A DNA stretch of 61,542 nt from Bacillota bacterium. Its GTDB lineage: Bacteria; Bacillota; Clostridia; Peptostreptococcales; Anaerovoracaceae. The position numbers and the translations under genes were made by a program. Below are positions 3,008-57,138 of the stretch, piece after piece. The notes under the pieces are model-generated. The model did not search any database and was not told the DNA's origin. It saw only the letters and a list, made by a program, of their open reading frames with translations. Location: NCBI GenBank assembly GCA_017459895.1, contig JAFUCA010000017.1, positions 1 through 61,542 on the forward strand. Direction: 5' to 3'. Position 1 is the stretch's first letter. The number at the start of each line of letters is the position of its first letter.

Positions 3008-4294
3008 ATGAATGGTCTGCCCGGGCAGCTGGTACTCATCGCAATACTGATCCTGTTCTCCGCCTACTTCAGCGCGACGGAGACAGCCTTTACGTCCGTC
3101 AACCGGATCCGCATGAAAAATCTGGCCTCCGACGGCAACCGCAAGGCCGAGAAGGTCCTGGCCCTGTCAGAGAAATACGACAAGCTGCTGACGACCATCC
3201 TGATCGGAAACAATGTGGTCAACATCTGGATGACGGCCATCGCCACCAGCCTTTGCATATGGCTGTACGGGGCCCACGGGGCGACCATCGCCACCATCGC
3301 GATCACCGTCATTGTTCTGATTTTCGGAGAGATCACGCCGAAGAACATCGCCAAGGAGAAATCCGAAGGATTTTCGATGGTTTCGGCACCCTTCATCGGA
3401 GCACTGATGACAATTCTGACGCCAATCACCTTTATCTTCACCAAATGGAAACAATTCATTGGTAAGATATTTAAGCTGGGACAGCAGGAGACCATCACCG
3501 ACGATGAGATCCTGACCATGGTGGAGGAGGCCGAGACGGAGGGCTCCATCGATGAGGGCCGAAGCGAGCTGATCCAGAACGCCATCGAATTCGACGAGCT
3601 CACCGCCGAGGATGTCATGACGCCCCGGCCGGACATGGTCGCCATCGATACCGACTGTACGCAGGAGGAACTGGCGGATCTGTTCCGGGAGACCGGGTAT
3701 TCCCGTCTGCCGGTGTATGAAGAGGAGATCGACCGGATCATCGGCGTCATCAATCAGAAGGATTTTCACAATCAGATCGTGGGGACGGATAAGAAGATCA
3801 TCGACTGCATCATCCCGGTGGTGTTCGTTGCGGAGACCATTAAGATCTTCGACCTGCTGCGGAAGATGCAGCAGCTCAAGACCCATATGGCCATCGTCAT
3901 CGACGAATACGGCGGCACAGAAGGCCTGGTCACGATGGAGGATATCATCGAGGAACTGGTGGGAGAGATCTACGATGAGCACGACGTGGTCATCAACAAG
4001 GAGATCCTGCCGTTGCAGAACGGCAGCTACCGGGTGCAGGCCAGCGCCAGCGTGGCCCGGATATTCGACTACCTGGACATCGACGAAGAGATCCAGGAGG
4101 TCAACACGATCAACGGATGGGTCGCCATGAACCTGGACCGCCTGCCGAAACGGGACGATAAATTCGAAACAACGATCGGAGATAAACTGCTGAAGGTCCG
4201 GGTGACTAAGGCAGATGACCGGAAAGCAATCGAAATCAATCTGGTCTGTGAGACGATCGCAGATGAAGAGGAAACGGAGGAAAAAGACAGATGA
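3008..4294 (+). CDS. CNNM/CorC family membrane protein with CBS pair
   Basis: The 428-residue protein has an N-terminal CNNM (DUF21) transmembrane domain (about 1-190) with helices such as [17 protein letters not shown] pair follows (about 200-330, starting at [12 protein letters not shown]), then a C-terminal CorC_HlyC domain (about 345-420). Family members (YhdP/YrkA/MpfA type) have been linked to Mg2+ efflux or homeostasis. The old haemolysin label is not informative. Its stop overlaps the secA start by four bases (ATGA), implying translational coupling. One copy of the dispersed 10-bp word lies at 3247-3256. Confidence 0.88.
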
Positions 4295-7062
4295 GTTTCA
4301 TGGAAAAAATCTTCGGAGACCTGAACGAGAAGGAAGTCCGCAAGGTTGAGAAGATCGCCGATAAGGTCATGGCGCTGGACGGTCAGATGGCCGCTCTCAG
4401 CGATGACGAGCTCCGGGGGAAGACGCAGGAGTTCAAGGACCGGATCGCCGGAGGAGAGAGCCTGGACGATCTGCTGCCGGAGGCCTTCGCGGTCTGCCGG
4501 GAGGGCGCCTGGCGGTCTCTGGGAATGAAGCACTTCCGGGTGCAGGTCATCGGCGGCATCGTGCTCCATCAGGGCAGGATCTCCGAGATGAAGACCGGTG
4601 AAGGTAAGACGCTGGTGGCGACCCTGCCGGCCTACCTGAACGCGCTGGAAGGCAAGGGCGTCCACGTCGTCACCGTCAACGATTATCTGGCGAAGCGTGA
4701 CATGGAGTGGATGGGCAAGCTCTACACCTTCCTGGGACTGACGGTGGGATGCGTCATTCACGGCATCAGCGAGGAGGAGCGCCGGGCAGCCTACATGGCG
4801 GACATCACCTACGGCACGAACAATGAGTACGGCTTCGACTACCTGAGAGACAACATGGTCGTCTACAAGGAAGAGATGATGCAGCGGGAACTGAACTACG
4901 CCATCGTCGACGAGGTCGACTCCATCCTGATTGATGAAGCCAGAACGCCGCTGATCATTTCCGGCAAAGGAGACAAGTCCACGGACATGTATCGGCAGGC
5001 GGATAACTTCGTCAAGAAGCTGGTAAAGGATCAGGACTTCACCATCGAGGAGAAGGACGATCAGATCGCTCTGACCGAGGAAGGCGTGGCCAAGTGCGAG
5101 GTCCATTTCGGCATCGAGAACTTCTCCGATCCGGAGAACATGGAGATCAACCATCACGTTCAGCAGGCCCTGAAGGCCCGCAACATGATGAAGCGGGACG
5201 TGGATTACGTGGTCCGGGACGGAGAGATCATCATCGTCGACGAATTCACCGGCCGTATGATGTTCGGACGCCGCTACAGCGACGGTCTGCATCAGGCCAT
5301 CGAAGCCAAGGAAAACGTGCTGGTTCGTTCCGAGTCCAAGACCCTGGCGACCATCACACTGCAGAACTACTTCCGTATGTATCAGAAGCTGGCCGGCATG
5401 ACCGGTACGGCGAAGACCGAGGAATCCGAATTCGTCGACATCTACAATATGGACGTTGTGGTCATTCCGACCAATAAGCCCATCGCCCGGCGTGACCTGC
5501 AGGATGCGGTCTACGCCACGGAGCGGGGCAAGTACCACGCCATCGCCGATCTGGTGGAGCAGGCCCACAGCACGGGACAGCCGGTCCTGGTAGGTACCAT
5601 CTCCATCGAGAAGTCGGAGCTGATCGCGGACATGCTGCGCAAACGGGGCATCAAGGACTTCAACGTCCTGAACGCGAAGCATCATGAGAAGGAAGCGCAG
5701 ATCGTCGCGGAGGCGGGCCGTCTGGGAGCGATCACCATCGCCACCAACATGGCAGGCCGTGGTACCGACATCATTCTGGGCGGCAACCCGGAGTTTGAAG
5801 CCAGGAAGAAGATGGCGGAGCTGGAGTACGACGAGGACCAGATCGCCTTTGCCACCAGCTTCATTCAGAGCGATGACCCGGAGCTTCTGGAAGCCAGAGA
5901 GACCTTCCAGAAACTGCTGGCGGAATATACAGCGGAGCGTAAGCCGGAGCAGGAGAAGGTCGTGGAGCTTGGCGGCCTGTGCATCATCGGCACGGAGCGC
6001 CACGAATCCAGACGTATCGACAACCAGCTGCGAGGCCGTTCCGGACGTCAGGGAGACCCGGGCCAGACCCAGTTCTGCATCTCCATGGAGGATGAGCTGA
6101 TGCGGCTGTTCGGCGGTGAACGGATGCAGAACATCGTCCAAAAGCTGGGCGTCGAGGAGAATGAAGCCATCGAATCGGGCATGATCACCAAGCAGATCGA
6201 GAACGCCCAGAAGAAGGTCGAGGGGCGCAACTTCAGCATCCGTAAGTACGTTCTCCAGTACGACAACGTCATGAACAAGCAGCGGGAGATCATCTACGGC
6301 GAGCGAAAGAGAGTCCTGTTCGGGGAGGATCTGAGAGACGAGGTCTCCAACATGACCCGAAAGCTGATCGATGAGATCGTCGATCCGGTGGTCATGGCCT
6401 CCAAATATGCAGAGGAATGGGATTTCGACACGATCAACAAGGGCCTGCTGAAGATCACCGACCGGTTCCAGCCTTTGGAATTCGATCTGGAGGATCCGGA
6501 GACGGTGGCGGATCTGCAGAACATGGACGAGCAGTCCCTGAAGGAAGGCCTGTACCAGGATTTCGAGGATCTGTACGAAGAAAAAGAAAAGGAGATCGGA
6601 GCGGAGCGGCTGCGTGACGTCGAGCGTATGATCCTGCTGCGTGTCGTGGATAATAAATGGATGGATCACATCGATGCGATGGATCAGCTGAAGAGCGGTA
6701 TCGGACTGCGGGGCCTGGGCGGACAGGATCCGGCGGCGGCGTATGCCCACGAAGGATTTGCCATGTTCGAGCTGATGGTCGCAGCGATCCAGGAGGAATT
6801 CGTGAAGTTCTGCTATAACGTTACGGTCAAGACCTCTTCGGAGCGCCGCAACGTCACCGGCAGGGGCGAGTCCCATAAGGATGAATACGTGGACGATACT
6901 CCGCAGCAGCCGGGCGGGCAGCAGCCTCCGGCAGCGGCAGCGGTTCCGGCCAGAGAGCGCAAGCAGGAGACGGTGCGCCGCGACACCCCGAAGGTAGGAA
7001 GAAACGATCCGTGCCCGTGCGGCAGCGGGAAGAAGTATAAGCATTGCTGCGGAAAGTCGTAA
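4291..7062 (+). CDS. secA: Preprotein translocase ATPase SecA
   Basis: The 923-residue protein has the normal length and order for SecA. Walker A is MKTGEGKT at about 100-107, followed by VNDYLAKRD, the DEVDS Walker B box, TGTAKTE, GRGTDI and [13 protein letters not shown] of NBD2. The C-terminal zinc motif [14 protein letters not shown] binds SecB or lipid. It drives Sec-dependent export at the membrane, on which the many exported proteins of this window depend. The start is translationally coupled to the upstream gene, and prfB follows as in many Firmicutes. There is no exact copy of the dispersed word in the gene, only a one-mismatch copy at 6468-6478. Confidence 0.97.
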
Positions 7063-7174
7063 GGATTGCCCGAGCGAAGCGAGGGAGGATGCCTTACGAC
7101 CCGCGCCAGAGAAACGGGCATGGCCCGTTCTATGGTGCGGAAAGGATATATGAAAGCTATAACAGGAGTCATAG

Positions 7175-8296: not shown

Positions 8297-8365
8297 TTGA
8301 AATTTCAGTCTTTTTAAGCCGGCGAAACCGGGAATATTTGTATACAGTATTTAAAAAAATACGCC

Positions 8366-8394: not shown

Positions 8395-8454
8395 GGATTC
8401 GGTGATGCAGATGCATCGCTTTAGTCGTTGTGTGAAAAAGGAGAATGATAAGAA

Positions 8455-10479: not shown

Positions 10480-12528
10480 TCAGTTGATCGCTTTGCCGTC
10501 AACATACAGCTTGTGGCCGTTAAAGTCGATGTTGCTGTAATCCCCGTCGGCGTCCTCCAGAGAGCTCACGTAGGAATCACCGGTCAGGGTGATCCTGGAA
10601 TCTTTATCCAGGGTCAGGGCGACGGATCCGGCTTCGTTGTCTCCGTTGATGGTGCCTTCGTAGGTCGAATCGGTCAGCTTCATGGAAAGGCTGGAGAGTC
10701 CGTCGAGCTGAATGTCTCCGGTGAGTTTCTCCTCCGCGGCCTTCAGGGTCACGTTGCCGCCGTTGGAGCCCTCGGTGCCCCATTCGCTGGTGCCCTGGGC
10801 ACTGAGGAGCACGCCGCTGCCGAAGTTCAACTCAGTATTCGTCAGATCGATGACAGCATCGGTGTTGGTGACGAAGAACATGGGTGCGGTCTTGTAGTAA
10901 CTGGAATCCTTGCTGATGCTCAGCACAGAATCCTTCGCGGTGAAGTTGCCAGTGCCCTCGTCCGCATCACCGGACATGGACTGGTAGATCATGACGCCCG
11001 CGATGTCCACGTCCCCCCGGTTGCCGGCGCCGCTGCATGTGAGCTTCGAGTTCTCAACGGCAGCGCTGTTCTTGCCCTCGACGACGGTGATCTGGGCACC
11101 GTTTGCAGTGCCCTTTGAATCCGTCAGCGTGATGTTACCGGTGGAGTAGATGAGGGGGGAGCCGGCGCCATTGGTCTCCAGTGTGGAGTTTGCTGCTGAC
11201 ACGGTTCCCTCGCCCCGGTCGGTGGCCATCGCTGCGCAGGAGCCGCCCTGGGTAGTGATGCTCACCTTGTCCGCTTCGATGGTGCCGCCGTAAGTGGCGT
11301 CCAATCCGCGGGAGGAGCTTTCTCCGCTGGTGGTGATGGTGGAATCGCTGATGGTGATCTTCGAATTCTCACCGGTCGAAAAGACAGCGTTGGCTCCCTT
11401 GGCGCTGGTGGTGATGGTCGCGTTCTTCACGGTCGCGGTCGAGTTTTCCTGGACCAGAAGTCCGGCGTTGACACCGGAGAAGTCGGAGCTCTCGGTGTTG
11501 GAGCTGTCGCCGCTTTCCTTGTTAATGGTCGCGCCGTCGGAGGTAAGGGTGCCTCCGTTCGTTACGAGGATAGCGTTCTCATCCGCATTGGTGGAGGTGT
11601 ACTCATCGTTCAGGGTCTCCTCAGTTCCGTCGACTGTGGTGGCGCCGGTCGCCTCGATGGAGCTTTCCTGTCCGCCCGGGCTGCCCTGGTTCTCCGGTCC
11701 GCCCGGGCTGCCCTGCATCTGTTCCTGCATCCGGCCGTGGCCTCCGGCAAAGACCTTGGTGGTCAGAGCGGCCTGTCCTCCGGTAAGGCATCCCGCCAGC
11801 AGAACCGCTGCGATGATGTACGCCGCGAGCCTCTTCCGGCTGCGGAAAGTCTCCCTCAGAGTCCTTTGGTTCATGTTGGAGAAGATCAGCTGCAGAAGGA
11901 TCAGCGCGAAGGCCAGACCCTCGGCTCCGAACAGGATGTAGTAGGGAGCGGAAATATCTCTCAGGGATGCGCCGCCCCTGTGACCGCCCGGGCCGCCGTT
12001 ATGGGTGGGGTTGATCTGGTTGGAACTTCCCTGGTCACTGCTGCCGGGGCCGCCATTCTGGTTGGAACTTCCCTGGCTGGAACTGGACTGGTCGCCGCTC
12101 CGGGGGCCGCCGTTTCCATCAGGCGGGCTGGGGGACTGGTTGCCGGAGTTGCCCTGGTCGGAGCTGCCTTGACTGGTGCTGCTCTGGTCGCCACTTCCGT
12201 CCGGCGGAGTGCTGCCATCCGGGGGAGCCGGCGGCTGAGCACCGGAATGATTGTCGGTATTATTGTCTGCAGCGCTCTGGTCGCTGGAGTTCTGATCGCT
12301 TTTTCTTTGATCGCTGGTGCTTTGATCACTGGAATTCTGATCGCTGGTGCTTTGGTCCGGCTGCTCCAGCCTTTGCTCGGACTGGGGTCCGCCCTGCATC
12401 TGCGGTTGCTCACCTATACCCGGAGGTCCGGCAAGGGAACCGGCGGCGCGATGGGCCGTGAAGACCATACCTGCTGCGAGCAGAACTGCGATCACGATCA
12501 TGATGATATTCTTTCTCGTTCGATTCAT
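10480..12528 (-). CDS. Large membrane-anchored Ser/Asp/Gly-rich repeat protein
   Basis: The 682-residue protein has unusual architecture. An N-terminal signal/anchor helix (about 8-27) is followed by a low-complexity DQ/SS/PPDG-rich stretch (about 45-185). Two further hydrophobic helices (about 195-220 and 232-255) come next, then a long Thr/Ser/Asn/Gly-rich part (about 280-680). The repeated pattern of short beta strands in that part (TVKNATITTS, KITISDSTITTS, NITLTDSKGT) suggests a right-handed beta-helix as in autotransporter or pectate-lyase-like surface proteins. No catalytic residues are evident. Start at 12528 has an AAAGGA site. One copy of the dispersed word is at 12367-12376. Surface adhesin or carbohydrate binding is a guess. 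Confidence 0.6.
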   Translation of the reverse strand: MNRTRKNIIMIVIAVLLAAGMVFTAHRAAGSLAGPPGIGEQPQMQGGPQSEQRLEQPDQSTSDQNSSDQSTSDQRKSDQNSSDQSAADNNTDNHSGAQPPAPPDGSTPPDGSGDQSSTSQGSSDQGNSGNQSPSPPDGNGGPRSGDQSSSSQGSSNQNGGPGSSDQGSSNQINPTHNGGPGGHRGGASLRDISAPYYILFGAEGLAFALILLQLIFSNMNQRTLRETFRSRKRLAAYIIAAVLLAGCLTGGQAALTTKVFAGGHGRMQEQMQGSPGGPENQGSPGGQESSIEATGATTVDGTEETLNDEYTSTNADENAILVTNGGTLTSDGATINKESGDSSNTESSDFSGVNAGLLVQENSTATVKNATITTSAKGANAVFSTGENSKITISDSTITTSGESSSRGLDATYGGTIEADKVSITTQGGSCAAMATDRGEGTVSAANSTLETNGAGSPLIYSTGNITLTDSKGTANGAQITVVEGKNSAAVENSKLTCSGAGNRGDVDIAGVMIYQSMSGDADEGTGNFTAKDSVLSISKDSSYYKTAPMFFVTNTDAVIDLTNTELNFGSGVLLSAQGTSEWGTEGSNGGNVTLKAAEEKLTGDIQLDGLSSLSMKLTDSTYEGTINGDNEAGSVALTLDKDSRITLTGDSYVSSLEDADGDYSNIDFNGHKLYVDGKAIN

Positions 12529-13092: not shown

Positions 13093-13174
13093 CCGGCAAG
13101 AAACGAAACCCTTGTGGCGGGAATCCAGTCCAGCCTTTGCATCAAAATGAGATGATTTTTAGTCCGAAAAGCTG

Positions 13175-15063: not shown

Positions 15064-16155
15064 ATGAGCAACGAAAGAGCGTATAACTTTTCGGCAGGTC
15101 CGTCTATGCTGCCCCTTCCGGTACTGGAAGAAGTCAGGGACAACCTTTTGAACTACAAAGGCTGCGGCGAGTCCGTCATGGAGATGAGCCACCGGTCCGC
15201 GGAATTTAAGCAGATCCTGGCAGATGCCGAGGCCTCCCTGAGAGATATCATGAACATTCCGGATAATTACAAGGTCGTGTTCGTCCAGGGCGGCGGCACG
15301 CTGCAGTTCGCGATGGTTCCCATGAACCTGGCGACGAAGAGCGGCAAGATCGACTTTGTCGTTACCGGCCAGTGGGCGAAGAAGGCCTATCAGGAAGCGG
15401 TCAAGCTGGGCTTTGACGCGAAGGTCATCGCCTCCTCCGAAGACGATGTCTATACCTGGATTCCGAAGATCACGAAGGACGATATCCGTCCGGACGCAGA
15501 CTACGTGCACATCTGCTTCAACAACACGATCTACGGAACCCACTACAACTACATTCCGGACACCGGAGACATTCCTCTGGTGGCGGATATGTCCTCCTGC
15601 ATCCTGTCCGAGGAAGTCGATGTCAGCAAGTTCGGCATCATCTGGTTCGGCGTGCAGAAGAACGTAGCTCCGGCGGGCGTGGCAGTGGCCATCATCCGCG
15701 AGGATCTGATCGGCAACGCTCCGGCAGACATCCCGACCTATCTGGACTACAAGCCTCACGTGGAGAAGGAATCCGCCTACAATACACCGAACTGCTGGTC
15801 CATCTACGTATCCGGCGAGGTCTTCAAGTACATCAAGAGCATCGGCGGCATCGCGGAGATGAACAAGAGAGATATCGCAAAGGCTGGCAAGCTCTATGAT
15901 TTCATCGACGCCAGCGATTTCTACAAGTGCCCGGTGAAGAAGGAAGACCGTTCCCTGATGAACGTAGTCTTCGTCATCGGAGACAAGGATCTGGAGAAGA
16001 AGTTCGTTGCTGATGCAAAGGCGGAAGGGCTCCACAACCTGGGCGGCCACCGGACCGTCGGCGGCATGCGCGCCAGCATTTACAACGCGATGCCGGAAGA
16101 AGGCGTGGACAAGCTCATCGAGTTCATGAAGAAATTTGAAGCGGAGAACAAATAA
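15064..16155 (+). CDS. serC: Phosphoserine aminotransferase SerC
   Basis: The 363-residue PLP enzyme converts 3-phosphohydroxypyruvate and glutamate to phosphoserine in serine synthesis, and also acts in pyridoxal synthesis in some bacteria. The N-terminus YNFSAGPSMLP, the helix GCGESVMEMSHRS, the PLP-lysine segment (FGVQKNVAPAG) and the C-terminal GGHRTVGGMRASIYNA are all family hallmarks. AAGGAG lies eight bases before the ATG at 15064. serA is not adjacent. A copy of the dispersed word falls in the coding sequence at 15877-15886, where it encodes Ala-Lys-Ala-Gly. Confidence 0.96.
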   Translation: MSNERAYNFSAGPSMLPLPVLEEVRDNLLNYKGCGESVMEMSHRSAEFKQILADAEASLRDIMNIPDNYKVVFVQGGGTLQFAMVPMNLATKSGKIDFVVTGQWAKKAYQEAVKLGFDAKVIASSEDDVYTWIPKITKDDIRPDADYVHICFNNTIYGTHYNYIPDTGDIPLVADMSSCILSEEVDVSKFGIIWFGVQKNVAPAGVAVAIIREDLIGNAPADIPTYLDYKPHVEKESAYNTPNCWSIYVSGEVFKYIKSIGGIAEMNKRDIAKAGKLYDFIDASDFYKCPVKKEDRSLMNVVFVIGDKDLEKKFVADAKAEGLHNLGGHRTVGGMRASIYNAMPEEGVDKLIEFMKKFEAENK

Positions 16156-16162: not shown

Positions 16163-18007
16163 ATGAAGCTGAATGCGAAGCAATTAACCAACTTTATAAG
16201 TTCGATTGTGATCACGGCGCTGCTCCTGACCGGAGCAGTGCCTTCTTTCACGTGGGCGGCGGATACAGACGAAGCGCAGCCGGCCGCTGCCGCCGCGCAG
16301 GAACAGCCTTTGCAGATCCAGCCGTCGGTGGACATCAGCGCGGTGAAGGCCCCGAAGACCTTCGGAACCTCCGTGCTCGCCATGGATATGCGGACCGGAA
16401 CGGTTCTGTATGAGAAGAATGCGGATGAGGTCCGGCAGCCGGCCAGCGTCACGAAGATCCTGACCTGTCTGGTCATACTCGAGAATCTGCCGATGGATGA
16501 GGTCGTCACCGTACCGGAAGGCATCGAGATGGGAGGCAGCAGCATGGGGCTGATGCCCGGAGAGAAGCTGACGGTGGAGGAGCTGCTGTACGGACTCATG
16601 CTCCCCTCAGGCAATGACGCGGCGGAGGTTCTGGCCATCGCGGCGGGCGGGAGCATCGACGGCTTCGGCGAAATGATGAACGCCCGGGCGAAGGAGATGG
16701 GTGCGGTGCATACCGACTTCCGAAACCCCAACGGACTCAACGAAGATCCCCAGCGGCTGAACTACACCACGGCGAGAGACCTGGCGATCATGTCCAGAGA
16801 GGCGATGAAGAATCCGGACTTCCGGAAGATCGTCGGAACAGCGAAGCACACCGTGCCTGCCACCAATCTGTCCGAGGAACGGGACCTGGAGAACTCCAAC
16901 TGGTGCCTCTGGAAGAAGAGCAAGATGGTGATCAATAAGAAAGAGGTTCCGTACAAGTACGACGGCTGCACCGGCATCAAGACCGGATTCACCAGCGATG
17001 CGGGCAACTGCTTCGTCGGAAGCGCGGAGCGGGACGGGACCGAGATCCTGGTGGTATCGCTGAATTCGGAGAAACTTTCCCAGCGGTACAAGGACGGCGT
17101 CATCCTGTGGAACGATGCCTTCAGCAAGTACGAGACCAGTCAGATCCTGCAGGCCGGAGAGTCCCTTGGCATCAGCCGGGTGCGCCGCGGCGAGACAAAG
17201 ACCGTGGAAGTCGGTACGAAGGAGGATCTCTATCTGACCGTTCCGAAGGGGACGAAGGCGGACGGGGAATTCACTACGGAGTTTCAGCTGAAGGAAGACC
17301 GTCTGACGGCTCCCGTCGAAGCCGGCCAGAGCGTCGGCGATGCGCTTGTTTTTAACAGCAAGGGACAGCTGGTGGGAAGGGAAGAACTCTATACCCTCGC
17401 GGCCGTGGGACAGGGCGGTCCCCTTTCGTACATCGGGATCGCGGATAAGGACGCGCCCATGGTGCTCGGCGCTGCCGGGGCGCTGCTGCTTCTGATCATC
17501 ATTCTGACCATCCTCCGGCGAAGCCGCAGCCGCAAAAGCCGCAGGAAACAGCAGGATGAGATCCGCGGAGAGCTTGCGACCATGCGCACGGCCGGCGTCG
17601 GAATGACCATAGCGGAGCTCAGCGAGGTGACCGGCAAGGAAGAGATCAAGCCCATCGACCGGGGCCCGGCGCGGATCTCCGATGAGGAGCTGACCGCCTG
17701 GACCAGCACCGTCAGCGCATCCAAGGCCGGTCCCCAGGCAGGCCGCTTCGGCGGACGAAGCGAGCGGGGCGGTTACGGCAGAGATTTCCCGGGGGGTGCG
17801 CAGCAGGCAGAAGGACAGCCGGCGGGACGCGGCCGCAGCTCCCTCACCGATGAGGAACTGTTCGCTCTGCTGGAGCAGACGAATCGCGTTGATCGGAACC
17901 GGCCCCGCAGACACGCGGGCCTGACCCGGGATGAGATGATCGAAGTGATGCGCTCACCGGATCACGAAGCGGCGGAGGACAGAAAACCGGAGCAGGACAA
18001 TGTTTGA
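16163..18007 (+). CDS. D-alanyl-D-alanine carboxypeptidase (S11, DacF-like) with long tail
   Basis: The product has about 614 residues. A signal peptide (about 1-33) is followed by the peptidase S11 domain with SVTK (active Ser), SGN and KTG (CTGIKTGFTSD) motifs, then the C-terminal beta domain. It trims the terminal D-Ala of peptidoglycan pentapeptide. A membrane helix (APMVLGAAGALLLL, about 434-456) and an unusually long basic cytoplasmic tail of about 155 residues follow. The tail repeats the motif DEELxAxx (RISDEELTAWT, SLTDEELFALL). Start is uncertain: a TTG at 16136 inside serC is also in frame. The 3' end overlaps uvrC by eight bases. Confidence 0.88.
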   Translation: MKLNAKQLTNFISSIVITALLLTGAVPSFTWAADTDEAQPAAAAAQEQPLQIQPSVDISAVKAPKTFGTSVLAMDMRTGTVLYEKNADEVRQPASVTKILTCLVILENLPMDEVVTVPEGIEMGGSSMGLMPGEKLTVEELLYGLMLPSGNDAAEVLAIAAGGSIDGFGEMMNARAKEMGAVHTDFRNPNGLNEDPQRLNYTTARDLAIMSREAMKNPDFRKIVGTAKHTVPATNLSEERDLENSNWCLWKKSKMVINKKEVPYKYDGCTGIKTGFTSDAGNCFVGSAERDGTEILVVSLNSEKLSQRYKDGVILWNDAFSKYETSQILQAGESLGISRVRRGETKTVEVGTKEDLYLTVPKGTKADGEFTTEFQLKEDRLTAPVEAGQSVGDALVFNSKGQLVGREELYTLAAVGQGGPLSYIGIADKDAPMVLGAAGALLLLIIILTILRRSRSRKSRRKQQDEIRGELATMRTAGVGMTIAELSEVTGKEEIKPIDRGPARISDEELTAWTSTVSASKAGPQAGRFGGRSERGGYGRDFPGGAQQAEGQPAGRGRSSLTDEELFALLEQTNRVDRNRPRRHAGLTRDEMIEVMRSPDHEAAEDRKPEQDNV

Positions 18008-26723: not shown

Positions 26724-26774
26724 AGATGCAAAGGCTGCAGGAACGGTAGCGTCGAATACCGTATGAACGCAGGG

Positions 26775-35308: not shown

Positions 35309-35350
35309 CTCCAGCCTTTGCGAATCCGCAGATGTATATAGTTCCAACAA

Positions 35351-40057: not shown

Positions 40058-40957
40058 ATGAAGAAAAAACTAACAACCATTATCATAATGACTATTATTA
40101 TGACACTGGCTGCGCCAGCCTTTGCATCAGCTGAGGTTAGAGGCTCAACGCAGTTTCTGATCAATCAGGCAAAGAGTACGAAGTATACAGGAAAGACGCT
40201 GAGTCAGGTCAAGGCAGCGATTAAGTCGCAGGGGTATAACGGTTGGAGGATGAGTTATGACTATGACTGGTGCGCCTGGTACGTTGCAAATATAGCAAAC
40301 GCAGCTTATGTCGGTAACTATTCGGGCATGAAGCAAGTCGCCAAAAGCACATATGCGAATATTATGGCAGAGAATTTCGCTAGGTTTAACGGGACTACGA
40401 AAAAGAATCCATCCAAGTATACTCCAAAGGCTGGCGATATTGTTGTAGAGAATAACAACGGGCATATCGGTATCATGATTTCCTCAAAAAAGGCTGTTTA
40501 CGGAAATGATGGAACGGCATCCTGGCGATACACAACAGTGAAAATCAGAAAACCGCACGATGTAACCTACTACGTTCCGCGGGCAAATTGGTACCAAGTG
40601 CATTATTCAGACGGACTGGCAAGTACAACGATCACAAACGATATGAAGATCAATCCTCCCCATAAAGCAACTTTTGGGAAGTCAGTAAAGACAAGCGCTA
40701 AGAAGTTCAAGAGGCAGGGATATACTTATTCGTATTGGTACATCTATCGACAAGATTATAGCAAAGAAAACAACCGATATACGAACCAGTACTATTCGAA
40801 AAATACCAAGACGGGGAAATACGCTTGGGTTCCATCTGGAACGAAGAACTACAAGAAGTATAAGAAGAAGGTAGGGAGCAAAATCAAGTTCGGATACAAT
40901 GCCGGTTTTGCGGGAGCCAAGATCATTCTGACTCCGGTGTGGACGAAGAGCAAATAA
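40058..40957 (+). CDS. Secreted CHAP-domain peptidoglycan hydrolase
   Basis: The 299-residue protein has a signal peptide ending near PAFASAEV and an N-terminal CHAP domain with the catalytic Cys in DYDWCAWYVANIANAA, the His in NNGHIGIMISSKKAVYG, and an expected third polar residue after it. CHAP enzymes cleave peptidoglycan as amidases or endopeptidases. The basic C-terminal part (about 185-299), rich in Tyr and Lys, may bind the wall. Start at 40058 has AAGGAGG nine bases upstream. The dispersed word (40116-40125) again falls on signal-peptide Ala-Phe-Ala codons. Confidence 0.82.
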   Translation: MKKKLTTIIIMTIIMTLAAPAFASAEVRGSTQFLINQAKSTKYTGKTLSQVKAAIKSQGYNGWRMSYDYDWCAWYVANIANAAYVGNYSGMKQVAKSTYANIMAENFARFNGTTKKNPSKYTPKAGDIVVENNNGHIGIMISSKKAVYGNDGTASWRYTTVKIRKPHDVTYYVPRANWYQVHYSDGLASTTITNDMKINPPHKATFGKSVKTSAKKFKRQGYTYSYWYIYRQDYSKENNRYTNQYYSKNTKTGKYAWVPSGTKNYKKYKKKVGSKIKFGYNAGFAGAKIILTPVWTKSK

Positions 40958-43891: not shown

Positions 43892-45139
43892 TCAGTACCC
43901 GAGCCGCCCGCGCAGCAGATCCCGGCGGCGCATCAGGATCCACAGGAGCAGAGCCATCAGACCGCAGCCAAGAGAGATCAGACCGGTGCCGGTGATCATT
44001 GAGCTCCAGGCCAGGGTCGCCAGACTGGTGCCGACGATGCCCACCAGATTGCAGGCAAACTGCATCAGAGCACTGGCGGAACCGGCGGCGTGACTGTATT
44101 CCTCCAGCAGGACCACGATGCTCAGGGGGCGGATCATGCCCTCGGCGATCATCAGGGGTACGATGGAGAACAGGAAGATCAGCGGATGCAGCCGCCCGAT
44201 CAGAAGAAGCGACGATGCTCCCGTCAGCACCATGGCAACGGTGATAGTGACCACCCATGCTCCGCTGAGCCGGCGCACCAGGAGCATGTAGAGAAACGGC
44301 GCGATGATGGACATACCGGCGCCGACGCCGTACAGGATGCCGTAGGCTACATTGCTGATGCCGAAATCGTTGATGTACACATAGGAACTGACGGCGATGT
44401 ACGCCCAGACCGGGATTGTCAGGAACGCGGCGATTCCGAGGAATAATGCAAAGGCTGGCGCTCTCGCGATGGAGAGTGCCTCTTTTATTACCGCGGACAT
44501 ATGCTCCGCGACCCGGATTTCTTTTGGCCAGGTCTCGGTGGAGATCAGAATCGGGATCGCCGTGATCCCGGTGGCGATGCCGAGAAAATAAAAGATCGAA
44601 TGCCAGGAACTGATGTTGATCAGTACAGATCCCAGCGTGGGCGCAAGCAGCGGGCCCATGGCCGCGATGGACTGCAGCAGCGTCATCGACCGCTCAAAGC
44701 GGCGGCCGGAGAAGCTGTCCTTGATCATCGCCGAGGTTACTGTAAGAACGCTTCCGGTGCCCAGACCGCCGGCCGCCCGGAGCACAGCCATGCTGAGCAC
44801 GCTCCCCGAGAAAGCGCACAGAAATGTGCAGACAGCGCTTCCGATCAGACCGATCAGGAGCACGGGCTTGCGGCCGAACCGGTCCGAGAGCGTGCCGCTG
44901 AACAGCGTGCTGACTGCCGTCGTCACGATCCCTGCGTTGATTGTGATGTTCAGCATGGATTCCGTCGTGTGGAACTCTTCCTTGAGGATCGGCAGAGCCG
45001 GCAGATACATATCCAAAGTGATCCACTGGATCGTCGTAATGACCATGATGGTGATGACGAAAAACGTCATATTCAGATGTTTCTGGGGAAGCAGAATTTC
45101 CGGGTCAGCAGGCCTCCCCCTTCGGTCGGTGTGCTTCAT
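43892..45139 (-). CDS. Bcr/CflA-type MFS drug exporter
   Basis: The 415-residue protein has twelve predicted membrane helices. The MFS loop 2-3 motif is GTLSDRFGRKPVL, and the first helix holds DMYLPALPILKEEF, typical of the Bcr/CflA (DHA1) group that exports bicyclomycin, chloramphenicol or sulfonamides. Start at 45139 overlaps the stop of the upstream phosphatase gene by four bases (ATGA). A longer start at 45214 lies inside that gene. The dispersed word is at 44448-44457. Confidence 0.86.
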   Translation of the reverse strand: MKHTDRRGRPADPEILLPQKHLNMTFFVITIMVITTIQWITLDMYLPALPILKEEFHTTESMLNITINAGIVTTAVSTLFSGTLSDRFGRKPVLLIGLIGSAVCTFLCAFSGSVLSMAVLRAAGGLGTGSVLTVTSAMIKDSFSGRRFERSMTLLQSIAAMGPLLAPTLGSVLINISSWHSIFYFLGIATGITAIPILISTETWPKEIRVAEHMSAVIKEALSIARAPAFALFLGIAAFLTIPVWAYIAVSSYVYINDFGISNVAYGILYGVGAGMSIIAPFLYMLLVRRLSGAWVVTITVAMVLTGASSLLLIGRLHPLIFLFSIVPLMIAEGMIRPLSIVVLLEEYSHAAGSASALMQFACNLVGIVGTSLATLAWSSMITGTGLISLGCGLMALLLWILMRRRDLLRGRLGY

Positions 45140-45978
45140 CGGTGCTTCGCCTCCGCGTTTTGTGCTCCCTTCCACGCTGCCAGAAACTCCTTCACTGCTG
45201 AAGGCCGGCCGCACAGGATCGATGGTTTCCCTTCAAATTTCAAGGGAGCACCGTTGATGTCGGTGACGGAGCATCCGGTTTCCTCGGCGATCAGCTTGCC
45301 GGCGGCGAAATCCCAGGGCGAAAGACTGAGCTCCGCATAGAGCCCGAAGCGGCCGCAGGCGGTCCAGCAGCAGTCCAGCGCCGCCGATCCCGTGCGCCGC
45401 ACATCCGCTGAGAGCTCGTACAGAAGATGCGCCATACGGAAGGTGGGAGCATTGGTGGAATCGTCATAGGGAGCCGTGCCGAATACCGTGATCGCATCCG
45501 CCAGCTTCAGATCAAACTCCGGCAGACGGTGCCCGTTCAGCCAGGTGCCCCGGCCAAGGCCCGCGCTGAACAGCTCTTCCCGGTAGGGGTCGTAGATCAC
45601 GCCGATCCGCGTTTTACCGTCCACCGTCATGGCGATGGATGTGCAGGAATGCTGCAGTCCGTGGACGAAATTCGCGGTGCCGTCGATGGGGTCGATGATG
45701 AAACAGACGCCTTCATTCACCTCCTCCGGATCCGCGATCTGCCGGATCCCGGGCAGAGACAGATCCTCCTCGCAGAGGAACGAGCAGGGGGAACACAGGA
45801 TGTCCAGCCTTTGCATGAGCATCCTCTGGATCTCCAGATCCTTCGAAGTGACCAGATCCCGGCGGCCGGACTTGGTGGACACCTTAACATCCCGGTCCGC
45901 GCTGCGGATCATGCGGCCGGCTTTCACCGCCAGTTTCTCGATTTCATGCTGCAGGAATGCGTCATCAGGTACGATCAT
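45136..45978 (-). CDS. Inositol monophosphatase family protein
   Basis: The 280-residue protein shows the Mg2+-dependent phosphatase motifs: FLCEEDL in place of the usual GEE(S/T), DPIDGTANFVHG (motif 1, about 103-114) and SPWDFAAGKLIAEETG (motif 2). Members hydrolyse inositol phosphate, 3'-phosphoadenosine phosphate or fructose bisphosphate, and which one applies here is unknown. It is translationally coupled to the exporter downstream. One dispersed word copy is at 45805-45814. Confidence 0.88.
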   Translation of the reverse strand: MIVPDDAFLQHEIEKLAVKAGRMIRSADRDVKVSTKSGRRDLVTSKDLEIQRMLMQRLDILCSPCSFLCEEDLSLPGIRQIADPEEVNEGVCFIIDPIDGTANFVHGLQHSCTSIAMTVDGKTRIGVIYDPYREELFSAGLGRGTWLNGHRLPEFDLKLADAITVFGTAPYDDSTNAPTFRMAHLLYELSADVRRTGSAALDCCWTACGRFGLYAELSLSPWDFAAGKLIAEETGCSVTDINGAPLKFEGKPSILCGRPSAVKEFLAAWKGAQNAEAKHR

Positions 45979-48099: not shown

Positions 48100-50124
48100 A
48101 TGCACTGGTCAGATAAGATTGCAGACATAGTCATCCGGAGAAATCCGGACAAAGAAGAATACGTATGCGCTGCCGGCATCAGCCCGTCAGGCTCCATCCA
48201 CATCGGAAACTTCCGGGACATCGCAACCGCGCTGTTCGTATGTCAGGCCCTGGAGAGAAAGGGCAAGAAAGCCCGCCTGCTTTTCTCCTGGGATGAGTAC
48301 GACCGTTTCCGTAAGGTCCCGGTGAATGTCAGCGCCGTGGATCCGGAGAACAAATACGAAGACTACATCGGACTCCCCTATAAGGACGTTCCGAACCCCT
48401 TCGGCACCGAAGAGACCGACTACGCCGATTTCTTCGAGAAGGAATTCATGCGGTCCATCGAGAAGTTCGGGATCACCATGGATTACCGGTATCAGGCGGA
48501 CATGTACCGCAGCGGCAAGTACGTGGAGCACATCATCACGGCTCTGAAGAAGCGCGGCGAGATCTTCGATATTCTGGACAGCTTCCGGACCCAGGAAGCG
48601 CAGCCGGGCGAGCGGGAGGCTTACTATCCGGTCAGCATTTTCTGCCCGCACTGCGGCAAGGACACTACGAAGATCACCTCCATCAATGAGGACTGCACCG
48701 TCGCGGAATACGAGTGCGAATGCGGCCACAAGGGGACCTTCGACTTCACGAAGGACTTCAACTGCAAGCTGGCCTGGAAGATCGACTGGCCGATGCGCTG
48801 GATGTACGAGGGCGTTGACTTCGAGCCGGGCGGCAAGGATCACGCGAGCCCCGGCGGTTCCTACGACACCAGTAAGGTCATCGCCAAGAAGATCTACGGC
48901 TATGAAGCGCCAGTCTTTGTAGGATACGAATTCATCGGCATTAAGGGAACCACCGGTAAGATGTCCGGATCCTCCGGCCTGAACCTGACGCCGGAGACGC
49001 TGCTGAAGCTGTACGAGCCGGAGATCATCATCTGGCTGTATTCCCGCTGCGAGCCCCAGAAGGCGTTCAACTTCTGCTTCGACGACGAGATCCTGCGGCA
49101 GTACTTCGAGTTCGATAAGAAATACAACCAGTACATCGACGGCACCGCCAATGAGCACGACAAGACCGTCATGGAGAACGCTCTGATGTTCGGACCGCGG
49201 ATCAAGACCGTGCCTATGTCCCTGCTGGTACAGCTCGGCTCCATCGTGGACTTCAACGTGCCCATGATCGAGACCGTGTTTGAGAAGATCAATCAGCCGT
49301 ACAAGTACGACGACTTTAAGGACCGGCTGGACCGGGCGAAGTTCTGGCTGGAGGAATGCGCGCCGGAGAACGCCAATAAGCTGCGGGCTACCCGGGATTG
49401 GGAGACTTACAACAGCCTGGACGAGAACGGCCAGAAGATGATCTCGATCCTCTACGATTATCTGAAGAACGAGGAATACGATCTGGACGCGCTGAATGCA
49501 GAGCTCTACGCGATCCCGAAGCAGATCTTCGGTGAGGACGCGGAGAACCTGAAGAAGCTGCAGGGCGCCTTCTTCAAGAGCGTCTACAAGATGCTGATCG
49601 ATAAGGAGAGAGGTCCGAGACTGTATCTGTTCCTCTACGCAATCGACAAGGAGCGGTTCCTGCCTTTGCTGGACTTCTCCTATCCCCAGACGGAGGAGGA
49701 GAAGGCGGCGGACGAGGCTGCAAAGGCTGGCCCGGCCGAGGAGGAGAAGGCGGAGCGCGTTTACGGCGATCCGGATCCTGTGGCGCCGATCACCCAGCCG
49801 GACATCTCCATTGACGATTTCTTCAAGATGGATCTGCGCGTCTGCAAGGTGCTGAAGTGCCAGGAGATCCGCAAGGCCCGCAGCAACTTCAAGCTGACTC
49901 TGTTTGACGGAGAGAGAGAACGCGTCATCGTGTCCAGCCTGAAGGGCGAGTACGAGCCGGAGGAACTGGTGGGCAAGAAGATCATCGTCGTGGCCAACCT
50001 GGAATCCGCCCGCATGACCGGCGTGACTTCGGAAGGCATGCTGCTGGCGGCGACCAACAATGCCTGCGGCTGCAAGGTTATCTTCGTTGACGATATGGTA
50101 CCGGAGGGGACGCGGATCTGCTGA
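48100..50124 (+). CDS. lysK: Class I lysyl-tRNA synthetase with C-terminal Trbp111-like domain
   Basis: The 674-residue protein has the class I signature HIGN (PSGSIHIGNF, about 29-32) and KMSGS (GKMSGSSG, about 287-291), and a cysteine-rich insertion (CPHCGK and CECGHKG). This is the archaeal-type LysK fold. After about residue 530, an acidic linker carrying a dispersed word copy (49720-49729) leads into a full tRNA-binding OB-fold (FFKMDLRVCKVLKCQEI, RVIVSSLKGEYEPEELVGKK, MTGVTSEGMLLAA). That is the Trbp111/MetG-C type usually attached to MetRS or PheT. Usual LysK is about 500-530 residues. It charges tRNA-Lys. Confidence 0.93.
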   Translation: MHWSDKIADIVIRRNPDKEEYVCAAGISPSGSIHIGNFRDIATALFVCQALERKGKKARLLFSWDEYDRFRKVPVNVSAVDPENKYEDYIGLPYKDVPNPFGTEETDYADFFEKEFMRSIEKFGITMDYRYQADMYRSGKYVEHIITALKKRGEIFDILDSFRTQEAQPGEREAYYPVSIFCPHCGKDTTKITSINEDCTVAEYECECGHKGTFDFTKDFNCKLAWKIDWPMRWMYEGVDFEPGGKDHASPGGSYDTSKVIAKKIYGYEAPVFVGYEFIGIKGTTGKMSGSSGLNLTPETLLKLYEPEIIIWLYSRCEPQKAFNFCFDDEILRQYFEFDKKYNQYIDGTANEHDKTVMENALMFGPRIKTVPMSLLVQLGSIVDFNVPMIETVFEKINQPYKYDDFKDRLDRAKFWLEECAPENANKLRATRDWETYNSLDENGQKMISILYDYLKNEEYDLDALNAELYAIPKQIFGEDAENLKKLQGAFFKSVYKMLIDKERGPRLYLFLYAIDKERFLPLLDFSYPQTEEEKAADEAAKAGPAEEEKAERVYGDPDPVAPITQPDISIDDFFKMDLRVCKVLKCQEIRKARSNFKLTLFDGERERVIVSSLKGEYEPEELVGKKIIVVANLESARMTGVTSEGMLLAATNNACGCKVIFVDDMVPEGTRIC

Positions 50125-50126: not shown

Positions 50127-51086
50127 ATGAAGAACCACAAGGGTGAAATGTTATTACTGCTGGCCTCCGTCATCTGGGGGTCAGCTTATATTTTTCAGAA
50201 GGTCGGCATGGACTATGTGGGTCCCTTTACCTTCGGGTTCTGCCGGTTCTGCCTGGGCGCACTGGCGCTGGTGCCGGTGGTGTGGCTGTTTGACCGCCGC
50301 AGGCAAAGGCTGGAGGGGCCGGCGGAAACGGCTGGGGCTGCGGAGACTGGAGCGGGAACCGGGGCGCGAACTCCCCGCCCGGGGGCTGCAGCGCTGACCG
50401 ACCGGACGCTGCTTGTCGGAAGCCTTCTGTGCGGACTGACGCAGTTCGCGGCGGGAAGCCTGCAGCAGATCGGTCTGATCTATACGACGGCGGGGAAGGC
50501 CGGCTTCATCACATCCATGCACATCGTGATCGTCCCTGTGCTGATGATCTTCCTGCGGCGCCGGGTCGGGTTTATCACCTGGATCGGGGTAGCGCTGGCG
50601 GTGTTTGGCATGTATCTGCTCTGTATTACCGAGGGATTCCGCCTCCATCTGGGAGACGGTCTGGTCTTTGGCTGCGCGGTGGTCTATGCGCTGCAGATCC
50701 TGCTGATCGACTATTATGCGGTGCGGACCGATCCGATCCGCCTGGCGGCACTGCAGTTTCTCATTGCAGGCATCCTGTCCGGAATCTGCATGCTCCTGTT
50801 TGAGCATGTTGTCCTGGCGGCGATTCTGGCCTGCGCGGTGCCGATCCTCTACACGGGCCTCCTGGAGGTCGCCGCTGCCTACACGCTGGAGATCTTCGGC
50901 CAGCAGACGACGGCGCCTTCAGTGACCGCCATCATCCTCAGCCTGGAGTCGGTGTTTGCCGTCATCTGCGGCGCCCTGTTTCTGGGAGAGCAGCTTTCGA
51001 GCCGGGAGATCATCGGCTGCGTTCTGATGATGAGCGCGTTTCTCATTGCCCAGATCGGCGGGGGAAATCGGGAGAAGACGGATTAA
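50127..51086 (+). CDS. EamA/DMT-family transporter
   Basis: The 319-residue protein has ten predicted membrane helices in two EamA repeats (LLLLASVIWGSAYIFQKVG at the start and TAIILSLESVFAVICGALFLGEQLS near the end). It probably exports a metabolite. Between helices 2 and 3 there is a 45-residue low-complexity insert (about 57-90, Gly/Ala/Thr-rich) absent from typical members. It begins with a dispersed word copy (50303-50312). The start follows lysK by two bases, so it is in the greA-lysK operon. Confidence 0.85.
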   Translation: MKNHKGEMLLLLASVIWGSAYIFQKVGMDYVGPFTFGFCRFCLGALALVPVVWLFDRRRQRLEGPAETAGAAETGAGTGARTPRPGAAALTDRTLLVGSLLCGLTQFAAGSLQQIGLIYTTAGKAGFITSMHIVIVPVLMIFLRRRVGFITWIGVALAVFGMYLLCITEGFRLHLGDGLVFGCAVVYALQILLIDYYAVRTDPIRLAALQFLIAGILSGICMLLFEHVVLAAILACAVPILYTGLLEVAAAYTLEIFGQQTTAPSVTAIILSLESVFAVICGALFLGEQLSSREIIGCVLMMSAFLIAQIGGGNREKTD

Positions 51087-51552: not shown

Positions 51553-54500
51553 GTGCAGAACTGGTCGTTAAAACAATTGCAGGAACTGCTTACAGACAAA
51601 AGCTATCGGCGGACGCTCGTCAGAGCGCTCGCTGTTATTGTCGTTTTTTGCACGACCTATGCGCTGATCCTGCCGGCCATCACCCTCGAGAAGGACAAGG
51701 CTCAGGAGATGGGCGGAGTGGATGTGGAGCAGGCCATCGAACTGCAGACGGAGGAAGAGGAGACGGCTGCGGCCGCTTCGGATGAGCCGGATGCTGATGC
51801 AAAGGCTGGGCCGGACGCTGATGCAAAGGCTGGCGAGCCGCAGGAAGCGGCTGCAGCGGATGATGATAACGCAGTAGTTCCGTCAGAGGGGGACCTGGAT
51901 CCTGCTGCCCAGGATACGGAAGCGGCAGCCTTTGCACCGGGAGAGCCCATTACCTATGAAGACGATACCATCCGAGTGACAGCCACACCGCTGGACGAAG
52001 AGATTCCGGCCGGAGCGGAGCTTGTTGTGACGCCGATCACCCCGGACATGGACGCTTACGATGCTTACTTCGAAGCGCTCAACCGGGGGTTTGATGCGGG
52101 TACCTACAACCCCGGGAACTCCCTTCTCTACGACGTATCCGTCATGGTGGGAGATCAGGAATACGAACCAAAGGACGGCAAGATTGAAGTCAAGCTGGAG
52201 TTCAAAGACAACCAGCTGACGGAGATGCTGGGCGGAGATCTGGATGAAAATGCGCCTCTCCGCGTGATTCACCTGCCGGTGAAAGGGAAGAACAGCAGCT
52301 CCCTCGAAAACGTGAAGGCATCCCGGGTCGAACGGGAATACGTCGCGGGTACGATCCTGGATACAGACGATGCGGAATCCGTCAGTTTCGAACTGGATAG
52401 TTTGTCAGTGGTGACGGTGACGGGGGCCACTACTGATGTGAACGTGACAGGGGCACTTCAGGGGACCACTATGAAGTCCCTCGATTACAATGTCTACGCA
52501 TATCTGGTACAGGAGAACGGCGGGGACGCTTATGGTGTCAAGATCAATTTTACAAATAAACAGTTCACCGGAACAATATCAAATGTGCCGGTAGGGACGT
52601 ATAATCTGGTGCTTGCGTACAAGGCAAATAATCAGCAATTAACGGAAGGGAAATGGAATAAGAATAACGTATACGAAAATATTGTTGTTGAGAATACAGG
52701 ACAATATATCTTTGGATACTCTGCACAAATGCCGGAGGATAAGACAATCACTTCAAGTGATAAGACAGTAAGTTTTGCATTAAGTGTATCCGAAACAACG
52801 AGTGCTGGCAATGTGTCTTTATCTACAATTATGGACAGGGCCCTGAATTACGGTATTGTGGCCGAGGATATCAAGTATAATGTCAGATCCTACACAAATT
52901 TTGCGGCGAAACATATTGATATTTCAAATAGCAATGACAGTACAATTTATAGCCACAGGGCTGATGGAATCGAGGTGGTCCCCAATATTCTTGCAAGTAT
53001 AACACACAATGGTCAGCCCATGTCGACACAGGATAAACCTGCAAACTATTATGTGACAGAAGATGACAAAAGCAAGGTAAGTTCCAACAATACAGAAGAA
53101 ACAATTTTACGGAACAAAAATGAGATTGAAGACCGTATTGAGATCATGATTTCCAATACGCTGAAACAGGCCGAGGAACTTGCACAGCCAGAAAAGAATA
53201 TGCTGACACTTCCATCCGTATTGACAGTAGACGTCAGTCCGTATGGAAAGGACGAGACAATCATTTTGGATGCAACAAACATTAGCGGGGAGCAAAATGG
53301 CTTCACTATTGTTAAACGACCTGGACAGACAGTAGTTTTTAATATATATGGCGAAAATGCTGCTCCACCACAGAATATCAAGATCAAGTTAGTTGATGAT
53401 GAAGGAAAGCAGATAGGAGATATCTACGAGGCGGGAGATAGTATGAAAAATGCTCCTGCATCAGATGGTAACGTATGGAACAAGGTCATCTGGAACTTTC
53501 CTGACGCGCCGTCGGTGACCGCCACAAATTGCATTGGAGGAATATTTCTGGTTCCGAAAGGTGATTTCAATGCGGCAAATAAGGGCGGTGGATGGATCGT
53601 GGCCCGAGGCAGGGTAAGTGTAACAAACGAATGGTATGGATTCCCCGGAGATGATGAACCGTTCAAACAGAAAATAATCCGAAAGACTTTTGTAGGGATT
53701 TCGGAGGAAAATGTTGATAAAAATAACTACCAAATCAAGGTGTGGACACATACTAATGAAAGCACGTCGGGCACAACTCGCGACCAATTAATAACCTCGC
53801 TGGTAATAAAAGAGGATTCAGATCCAACCCTAATACATGACAATACCGGAGAGAATGATCAGACGGGATATCTGGGGAAAGGAGTAGATGAAAATGGTGA
53901 TTTCTATGTTGAGTGGAGAACACCGCCGTTGTCTGTTGGAAACGAGCATAAATTAACTGAGGTTAATGCTGCCAGTACCGATGGAATTGATCCGGTTTTG
54001 ATTGAATTTACCGGACCTTATTCGGTGTGGAGTGATACAGCGAAGGATTATGTCTGGGAAAGCCGACAGGAAGATTTCACGAGCGCTGATAGTTTTGCGG
54101 GAATCTTTAATGTCAGTTCTCATAATGAAGATTACAGGCAGAATGTTTATGTGGTCAACCACTATACAGATATAAATAATCCTACAGTTTACGTAGCTCC
54201 AGAGGCTACAAAACAGTTGACTGGACGAAGTCTGTATGCGAATCAGTTCTCGTTTGAACTTTCAGCAACAGGTGATACACCACACATCAATGATTCCAAT
54301 AAAGACATTGTGACGAATGATGCAAATGGTCACATAAAGTTTGACCCTATTAAGTTTGAGAATCTTGGAATATCTTCAGGACAATCCAGGAAATTTACCT
54401 ATGCGATAAAAGAGGTTATCCCTGAGACTGCGACGGAAGAGGAAGGAATCGTTAGCAACGATGATGGGTATACTTATGATACACACGTCTGTAATGTTGA

Positions 54501-56661: not shown

Positions 56662-56674
56662 CTATTAAGGATTT

Positions 56675-56737
56675 ATGGGGCAGGAAATCTGCAAAGGCTG
56701 GGGCTGCATCCCCATAGAAATTGCAATACAGCCCCAG
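56675..56737. repeat. Four-block GGGG/CCCC element containing the dispersed word
   Basis: GGGG, 19 nt, GGGG, 6 nt, CCCC, 18 nt, CCCC: the same layout as the units at 46069 and 60761. The second block is fused to an exact GCAAAGGCTGG (56691-56701), at the same place where unit 46069 has a one-base variant. Confidence 0.8.
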
Positions 56738-56815
56738 AGATAATCAGAGGTGTTCTTCAGGAGTGAAGTTTGTCATAGATTCTGCCGCAGGAAAGCATAG
56801 CTCAAACTACGGAAC

Positions 56816-57067
56816 CTACCATGAGAGCGCTGTTTTCGTCCAGGATGGTAGGACGCTACCATAGGAGGCTTGCTTTCGTGAAAATATGGTAGGCGGCAGC
56901 GCTCTGGGATAGTAAAAGAGCAAATTGATTCAGTTCTGAAGAATTAAACCAGCAAAATAATTCTGCTTTTCGTTTGAAACAAAGGGTATTCTACCATATT
57001 CAGAGATATCCCGACCAGGATGGTAGATTCCTACCATCCTGGCTAGCTTTTGGCAGTTTCATGGTAG
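56816..57067. repeat. 252-bp CTACCAT element, copy 3
   Basis: Four-arm units lie at 56816-56892 and 56991-57067 (spacers 22 and 23 in both, 4-nt centres). The units start 175 bp apart. In the first unit AGAGCGCTG (56824-56832) can also pair with CAGCGCTCT (56897-56905). The dispersed word (57091-57101) follows, then the rpn promoter. There is no gene in 56602-57209. Confidence 0.9.
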
Positions 57068-57138
57068 GAGGGAGCGGCTGACGAAGATCTCCAGCCTTTG
57101 CACGACAATAAAAATAACAAAATATACCAGTAAAATAT

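Follow-up and report, generated by a model that had tools for sequence, protein, structure and literature searches.

Uptake sequences in other phyla and the present word

According to a 2025 paper, discrimination between own and foreign DNA during binding is known from two families only, the Neisseriaceae and the Pasteurellaceae (PMC12616744). The DNA uptake sequence (DUS) of the Neisseriaceae, with the consensus GCCGTCTGAA (PMC13020248), is reported in eight dialects that have a common inner core and follow the species tree (PMC3630211). The uptake signal sequence (USS) of the Pasteurellaceae, with the consensus AAGTGCGGT (PMC13020248), is described as a short genome-enriched motif, with a length of about 9 bases, extended flanks and dialects that number two (PMC12616744). 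Here, we analyzed a 61.5-kb stretch of bacterial DNA (contig JAFUCA010000017.1, 61,542 nucleotides, called the window throughout), which is densely populated by the word GCAAAGGCTG, the probable DNA uptake sequence of its species. The phylum, Bacillota, and the gut source were read from the labels that named relatives of the same dialect and further matches carry, and no title reporting an uptake sequence in Bacillota was found in the open-licence full-text literature, with Firmicutes, Clostridia and metagenome-assembled genomes included.

As with the DUS, for which ComP is the receptor, a short word is found here in very high copy number and in dialects with a constant inner core. However, the DUS core lies around CTG, whereas GCAAARGC forms the core here, and by this mark the word is not a DUS proper; the phylum is another one, and the filament proposed here is the tight adherence (Tad) pilus. 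The USS shares the short, genome-enriched motif with dialects, but differs in phylum and in the word itself, which is unrelated here (being unlike AAGTGCGGT, it is no USS proper), and the USS receptor is predicted to be the minor pilin ComN/PpdA. Common to the DUS/USS kind and our case are an enriched word of 9–12 bases, its presence on both strands, the lack of polarity, the dialects, and the encoded machinery (in our own genome). The proposed route resembles that of Liberibacter crescens, for which DNA uptake via a Tad pilus and ComEC is reported in a paper that also cites the need for tad-like genes in Micrococcus luteus and whose main text does not use the term "uptake sequence" (PMC8513845). 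Unlike in L. crescens, a role of the Tad pilus is proposed here from gene content.

Abundance of the word

The window holds 28 exact copies of GCAAAGGCTG (16 on the minus and 12 on the plus strand) from position 3247 to 57101, while 100 dinucleotide shuffles of the window contained 0.12 copies on average and 2 at most. The original prediction, which was made from the window alone, had reported 27 copies on both strands; the enrichment stands, the count had to be corrected. In the whole assembly (2,495,951 bases in 55 contigs, 93.34% complete, 5.14% contaminated), the word occurs 442 + 422 = 864 times, compared with 4 + 6 = 10 times for the reversed word, and in an even draw of 297 genomes across the order the runner-up reached 86 copies. 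For a sample of 391 kb of own sequence (the window and 19 of 20 further stretches of this genome), GCAAAGGCTG was the commonest 10-mer and GCAAAGGCTGG the commonest 11-mer. Ranked against an order-4 Markov model of this sample, GCAAAGGCTGG came first among the 11-mers (123 observed, 0.86 expected), and GCAAAGGCTG (160 observed, 2.87 expected) was second only to the 10-mer CAAAGGCTGG that overlaps it (153 observed, 2.58 expected). The genome-wide count, for which a value near the Markov expectation had been named in advance as speaking against uptake, lies far above that of the reversed word, and the enrichment is real and stronger than could be seen from the window.

Weight had also been given to two word-free regions, for which chance suffices. 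A largest gap as long as 3257–12366 is expected with P = 0.29; since the spacing of the words is near random (coefficient of variation 0.93), this gap is unremarkable, and it carries apparent housekeeping genes such as secA and prfB (names read from translations, with no family search). For the IS66 and rpn genes, 4.4 kb without the word, P was 0.13. An avoidance of mobile DNA was rejected, as the gaps fall within chance.

All copies in the window are listed below, each an exact match to GCAAAGGCTG; where orthologous sites in relatives (G handles) were aligned, their forms are given.

3247..3256, minus strand, uptake-type word
12367..12376, minus strand, uptake-type word
13131..13140, minus strand, uptake-type word, outside called genes
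15877..15886, plus strand, uptake-type word, reads GCAAAGGCTGG here; conserved in G303; GCAAAGGCAAC in G268 and G282, GCAAAGGCAAA in G293, GCAAAGGCAGC in G300, GCAAAGGCTCAG in G261
16304..16313, minus strand, uptake-type word
20588..20597, minus strand, uptake-type word, conserved in G303
21478..21487, plus strand, uptake-type word, GCAAAAGCTG in G303
22879..22888, minus strand, uptake-type word
23055..23064, minus strand, uptake-type word, conserved in G303; GCAAAGGCAAC in G293
25001..25010, minus strand, uptake-type word
26728..26737, plus strand, uptake-type word, outside called genes
28678..28687, plus strand, uptake-type word, GCAAAGGCAGG in G304, G300, G289, G290, G307, G309, G312 and also in the TGG species G303
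31398..31407, plus strand, uptake-type word, conserved in G302; GCAAAGGCAGC in G282
32066..32075, minus strand, uptake-type word
35312..35321, minus strand, uptake-type word, outside called genes
37829..37838, minus strand, uptake-type word
38661..38670, minus strand, uptake-type word, outside called genes
40116..40125, minus strand, uptake-type word
42511..42520, plus strand, uptake-type word
44448..44457, plus strand, uptake-type word
45805..45814, minus strand, uptake-type word, conserved in G303
49720..49729, plus strand, uptake-type word, conserved in G297
50303..50312, plus strand, uptake-type word
51799..51808, plus strand, uptake-type word, first of three near the start of a large surface-protein gene
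51823..51832, plus strand, uptake-type word, second of these three
51926..51935, minus strand, uptake-type word, third of these three
56691..56700, plus strand, uptake-type word, outside called genes
57092..57101, minus strand, uptake-type word, outside called genes

Shape, placement and orientation

In the 159 sampled copies with full flanks, T precedes the word in 64% (position −1) and G follows it in 77% (position +10), and each further flank position carries at most 0.22 bits. One-mismatch neighbours of GCAAAGGCTGG are tolerated at positions 1, 2, 6, 7, 9 and 11; enriched forms include C at position 1 (19 copies), G at position 2 (10), A at position 6 (26) and the other bases at position 11 (11–13 each). 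Changes in the AAA at positions 3–5 (1 copy in total), at C8 (0) and at G10 (2) are nearly missing. Judged by its pattern of tolerance, this is the profile of a protein-binding site and not of a copied element.

Placement was assessed for 160 sampled words with a home-made gene caller. As had been predicted from the window, the copies are scattered through coding and non-coding DNA, with 129 of the 160 wholly within genes (0.37 per kb) and 31 not (0.73 per kb). The in-gene words occupy all six combinations of orientation and frame, which means that conservation acts on the DNA word rather than on a peptide. These data bear on the proposal that the word is the relic of a dispersed repeat, similar to miniature inverted-repeat transposable elements or repetitive extragenic palindromic elements, or of a repeated peptide. 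The genome does contain a dispersed repeat of about 360 bp, but the copy in the window is without the word, the flanks beyond the core-adjacent positions are too weak for a shared element, and every frame and both orientations are in use. We therefore rejected the transposable repeat on the weak flanks and the peptide repeat on the frames, and such an origin is extremely improbable. Linkage to one transposable repeat, named in advance as a finding that would speak against the uptake reading, was likewise not seen, with the copies having at most weak flanks in common.

No replication polarity was detected by GC skew in 10-kb pieces (82 words on the G-rich and 72 on the C-rich strand), and none relative to the major coding strand of each stretch (81 and 79), so that the predicted lack of a strong orientation bias was confirmed and the strict polarity named in advance as speaking against uptake was not seen. 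Within genes, the coding-strand orientation is favoured (83 versus 46). A Chi-like or other recombination or replication signal, read by AddAB, FtsK or a similar protein and spread through the genome, would share the high copy number and the occurrence in genes and spacers; the position-specific tolerance would fit any protein-binding site, and the coding-strand preference could hint at a weak orientation. However, Chi and the FtsK-orienting polar sequences (KOPS) are short and polar and stay the same within a group, whereas the present word lacks polarity and has a core of 10–11 bases with an end that varies between congeners. Chi and KOPS were rejected for the lack of replication orientation bias, and we regard a signal of this wider class as quite improbable.

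Close neighbours are not in excess. Among 191 degenerate words, 6 neighbours lie less than 60 bp apart (5.5 expected), and 4 of these are in plus-minus order.

Dialects in the genus and switching in place

Across the genus (49 genomes), we counted the core GCAAARGC and derived its density from rounded genome sizes: 31 genomes reached at least 350 per Mb, 4 lay at 305–335 (G435, G437, G311 and G243) and 14 were below 200. The reversed core contains CpG and is a poor baseline (385 versus 1352 in our own genome), and the density across genomes was used instead. Among 197 genomes drawn from the family, 192 of them outside the genus, the highest outside densities were 402 (G333) and 356 (G142) per Mb, and no such word was among the top words of these two (40 kb each). 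Core variants topped the word lists of G261, G268, G270, G289, G290 and G308 (samples of 64–80 kb), and pooled loci of relatives agree with these samples. No such word was among the top words of G187 (67 kb) and G193 (33 kb). Of the intermediate genomes, G435 has the word as TGCAAAGGCTA with a CTA end, G311 belongs to the A-dialect with 221 copies of TGCAAARGCA, and G243 (321 per Mb) showed no such word in 80 kb.

Two main dialects were found. The form GCAAARGCTGG occurs 762 times in our own genome, 440 times in G303, 435 in G297, 408 in G302 and 334 in G438, compared with 0–43 in the other 44 of the 49 genomes and at most 8 for the reversed control. The form TGCAAARGCA occurs 105–580 times in 23 of the 49 genomes and 4–86 times in the other 26; our own genome has 17 copies (control 15). 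G438 carries both (334 and 117 copies, respectively). Further ends are AAC in G282 (8 of 16 cores) and TCC in G261 (8 of 75 cores, with the 11-mer CAAAAGCTCCG at 7 versus 0.09 expected); the G270 variant has a leading TC, and G308, G305 and G313 have the core without a clear single end.

For the comparison of orthologous sites, the window and then all own stretches were aligned with relatives (12 in the case of the window), and the dialect classes were assigned by hand from pooled loci. The exact 10-mer was kept in 12 of 29 pairs with TGG species, 2 of 80 with A-dialect species, 1 of 22 with other dialects, 1 of 23 with non-enriched species and 0 of 2 with unclassed ones (156 aligned pairs, from species that are not independent of each other). 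Where GCAAARGC was retained, TGG relatives continued with T in 13 of 15 cases and A-dialect species with A in 18 of 20 (10 sites); the other dialects (n = 4: A 1, T 2, C 1) and the non-enriched species (n = 3: T, G, C) were mixed. By these alignments, the word is switched in place between species at orthologous sites. The dialects of one core in sister species and this switching go beyond the original prediction.

This switching also bears on a site for a nucleoid-associated, chromosome-organising or methylation protein. Such a site would equally be dispersed, free of replication polarity and marked by a protein-binding-like profile. However, with a word every 2.9 kb or so, for the most part in coding sequence, the switching of dialects would in our judgement need a stronger drive than ordinary selection on single sites. 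In addition, HIP1 and most methylation motifs are palindromes, while the present word is not palindromic. We consider this explanation improbable.

A tree of CpaF, TadB, ComEC and a TadE-like protein for 32 of the 49 species separates the 24 enriched species from the others by a single branch, but the support of this key branch is only 47, and the row of G193 is very long. The TGG species G000 (our own genome), G297, G302 and G303 group with a support of 99. A single gain of the word in the genus is possible on this topology.

Competence machinery and candidate filaments

The machinery was surveyed in 31 genomes of the genus (24 enriched, 7 non-enriched). Our own genome encodes ComEC, a ComEA-sized protein and a Tad pilus, the competence and pilus genes that had been proposed as a check. 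ComEC was found in 28 of the 31 genomes (23 of 24 enriched, 5 of 7 non-enriched), the exceptions being the non-enriched G148 and G301 and the enriched G302, which is 79% complete. HHH_3 matches were present in 30 of 31, and a ComEA-sized protein (open frame of 140–281 aa) in 26 of 31. The Tad ATPase CpaF was detected in 28 of 31 (22 of 24 enriched, 6 of 7 non-enriched), but not in the enriched G293 and G297 or in G299. The Tad locus consists of CpaF, TadB, a TadC-like and an Flp-like protein (TadC and Flp read from sequence), two TadE-like pilins and a DUF5702 protein, and occurs in enriched and non-enriched species.

As a second candidate filament, a PilT-type ATPase in an operon with a T2SSF gene (locus L060 in our own genome) was found in 16 of 24 enriched and 3 of 7 non-enriched genomes (G148, G198 and G301). 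It is absent from 8 of 24 enriched genomes, including G270 (98% complete) and G310 (96% complete), in which CpaF is the sole match over the family cut-off. Given this patchy distribution, the Tad pilus is the best candidate for a common filament, and it may be the filament in question, an assignment to which we give slightly less than an even chance. The PilT-like operon (contig C34) is weakened as the uptake pilus by its absence from enriched and presence in non-enriched genomes, by its four small proteins without a pilin family match above the curated cut-off, and by related operons at 77 named loci that are devoid of the word (5 copies of GCAAAGGCTG in 1.25 Mb).

The operon itself (L060:7070-10891) encodes a T2SSF protein, small membrane proteins (one of them DUF4860) and the PilT-like ATPase, without clear pilins. 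The ATPase gene was found twice with equal scores (G000: C14 and C34), perhaps a strain duplicate or a binning artefact. The 77 named loci with related operons (L122–L198, 73–82% ATPase identity) stem mostly from metagenome-assembled genomes of Clostridia; pooled, they show an excess of GAACATGTTC (56 versus 3.0 expected) and TAGAACATGT (28 versus 0.55 expected), which we take to be perhaps a LexA-type box.

Candidate receptor

For four proteins, the change relative to CpaF was compared between enriched pairs and non-enriched pairs in the same CpaF range. In this comparison of few, non-independent pairs, the small TadE-like pilin (L062:3129-3521 in our own genome) reached a ratio of 2.92 in enriched versus 1.97 in non-enriched pairs; the ratios were 1.58 versus 1.29 for TadB, 2.02 versus 1.93 for the zinc-type TadE-like pilin and 2.25 versus 2.17 for ComEC. 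For the small pilin, ectodomain identity was 25% among 11 enriched species (G261 short) and 44% among 6 non-enriched ones, while the N-terminal helix was similar in both (53% and 57%, respectively). The fast ectodomain would fit a part with an ever-changing specificity and makes the small pilin a candidate and a lead. That this minor pilin carries the specificity nevertheless seems rather unlikely at present.

The zinc-type TadE-like pilin was dismissed as the receptor, since it does not change faster in enriched species and resembles the Ada domain only weakly. This larger pilin (L062:4743-5501) has two tandem C-terminal repeats with the invariant cysteines C172, C195 and C198, and C224, C247 and C250. 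Against the Ada zinc domain (PF02805), 4 of 19 members matched weakly (best E 0.084), and the best match to solved structures (E 0.12) was no convincing relative.

Proposed mechanism and its standing

Taken together, enrichment, lack of polarity, weak flanks and congener dialects of one core support the predicted uptake reading, and we consider it likely that the word is the DNA uptake sequence of this species, with dialects in its relatives; competence, uptake and the role of the word in it we infer. The relatives, with their dialects and the switching in place, provide the strongest support. In the proposed process, the cell would be naturally competent, and a surface filament would bind free DNA carrying GCAAAGGCTGG. 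Retraction of the filament would deliver this DNA to a ComEA-like DNA-binding protein, ComEC would pass one strand through the membrane, and recombination would place the incoming strand into the chromosome. DNA bearing the word would be taken up more often, word-bearing alleles would spread by biased transformation, and words would thus accumulate on both strands, in and between genes. If the preference of the receptor shifted, the words would be rewritten in place, giving rise to dialects.

Several observations weigh against the uptake reading, in addition to the non-independent species in the alignments and the pilin comparison, the coding-strand preference within genes and the poorly supported key branch of the tree. 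In G303, 4 of 9 words are exactly conserved, just double the rate of random 10-mers (22%), and this TGG species has the A form at 28678. The habit of Neisseriaceae and Pasteurellaceae words to form inverted pairs as terminators is not in excess here. All 7 non-enriched genomes have the ComEA-sized protein, but it was found in only 19 of the 24 enriched ones; it is absent or truncated in G282, G293, G298, G303 and G304 (71–91% complete). The presence of the machinery does not predict the word, and no gene turned up that is confined to the enriched species. With densities outside the genus of up to 402 per Mb, core density alone cannot separate the weakest enriched genomes.

If the uptake reading is right, the word would have an independent origin in Bacillota. 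More tentatively, it could represent a third independent case of self-DNA recognition in transformation, with a TadE-like minor pilin on a Tad pilus as the receptor and dialect shifts that rewrite hundreds of words. Dialect shifts within one genus might then wall species off from each other's DNA, and natural transformation would shape the genomes of uncultured gut bacteria. With some species that have the word and others that lack it, and with several dialects among close relatives, the genus would be a natural experiment on the origin of such words, and could show how the preference of a receptor changes and whether species are isolated by their dialects.

Further observations

The dispersed repeat of about 360 bp lies at 28026–28390 in the window and recurs in at least 8 other places of the genome (C6, C8, C9, C28, three in C34, and C37), 82–92% alike over 250–360 bp. 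No Rfam family matched the window at the gathering score, this repeat included. Two rpn-type genes (57210–58049 and 61052–61540, a label given by the original prediction) flank the IS66-type genes; their first 45 residues differ at one place, and the second copy ends at the contig edge. In another genus of the family, G294 (L103–L106) and G072 (L099–L102) show a weak excess of GCAGGYTTTG, possibly another such word.

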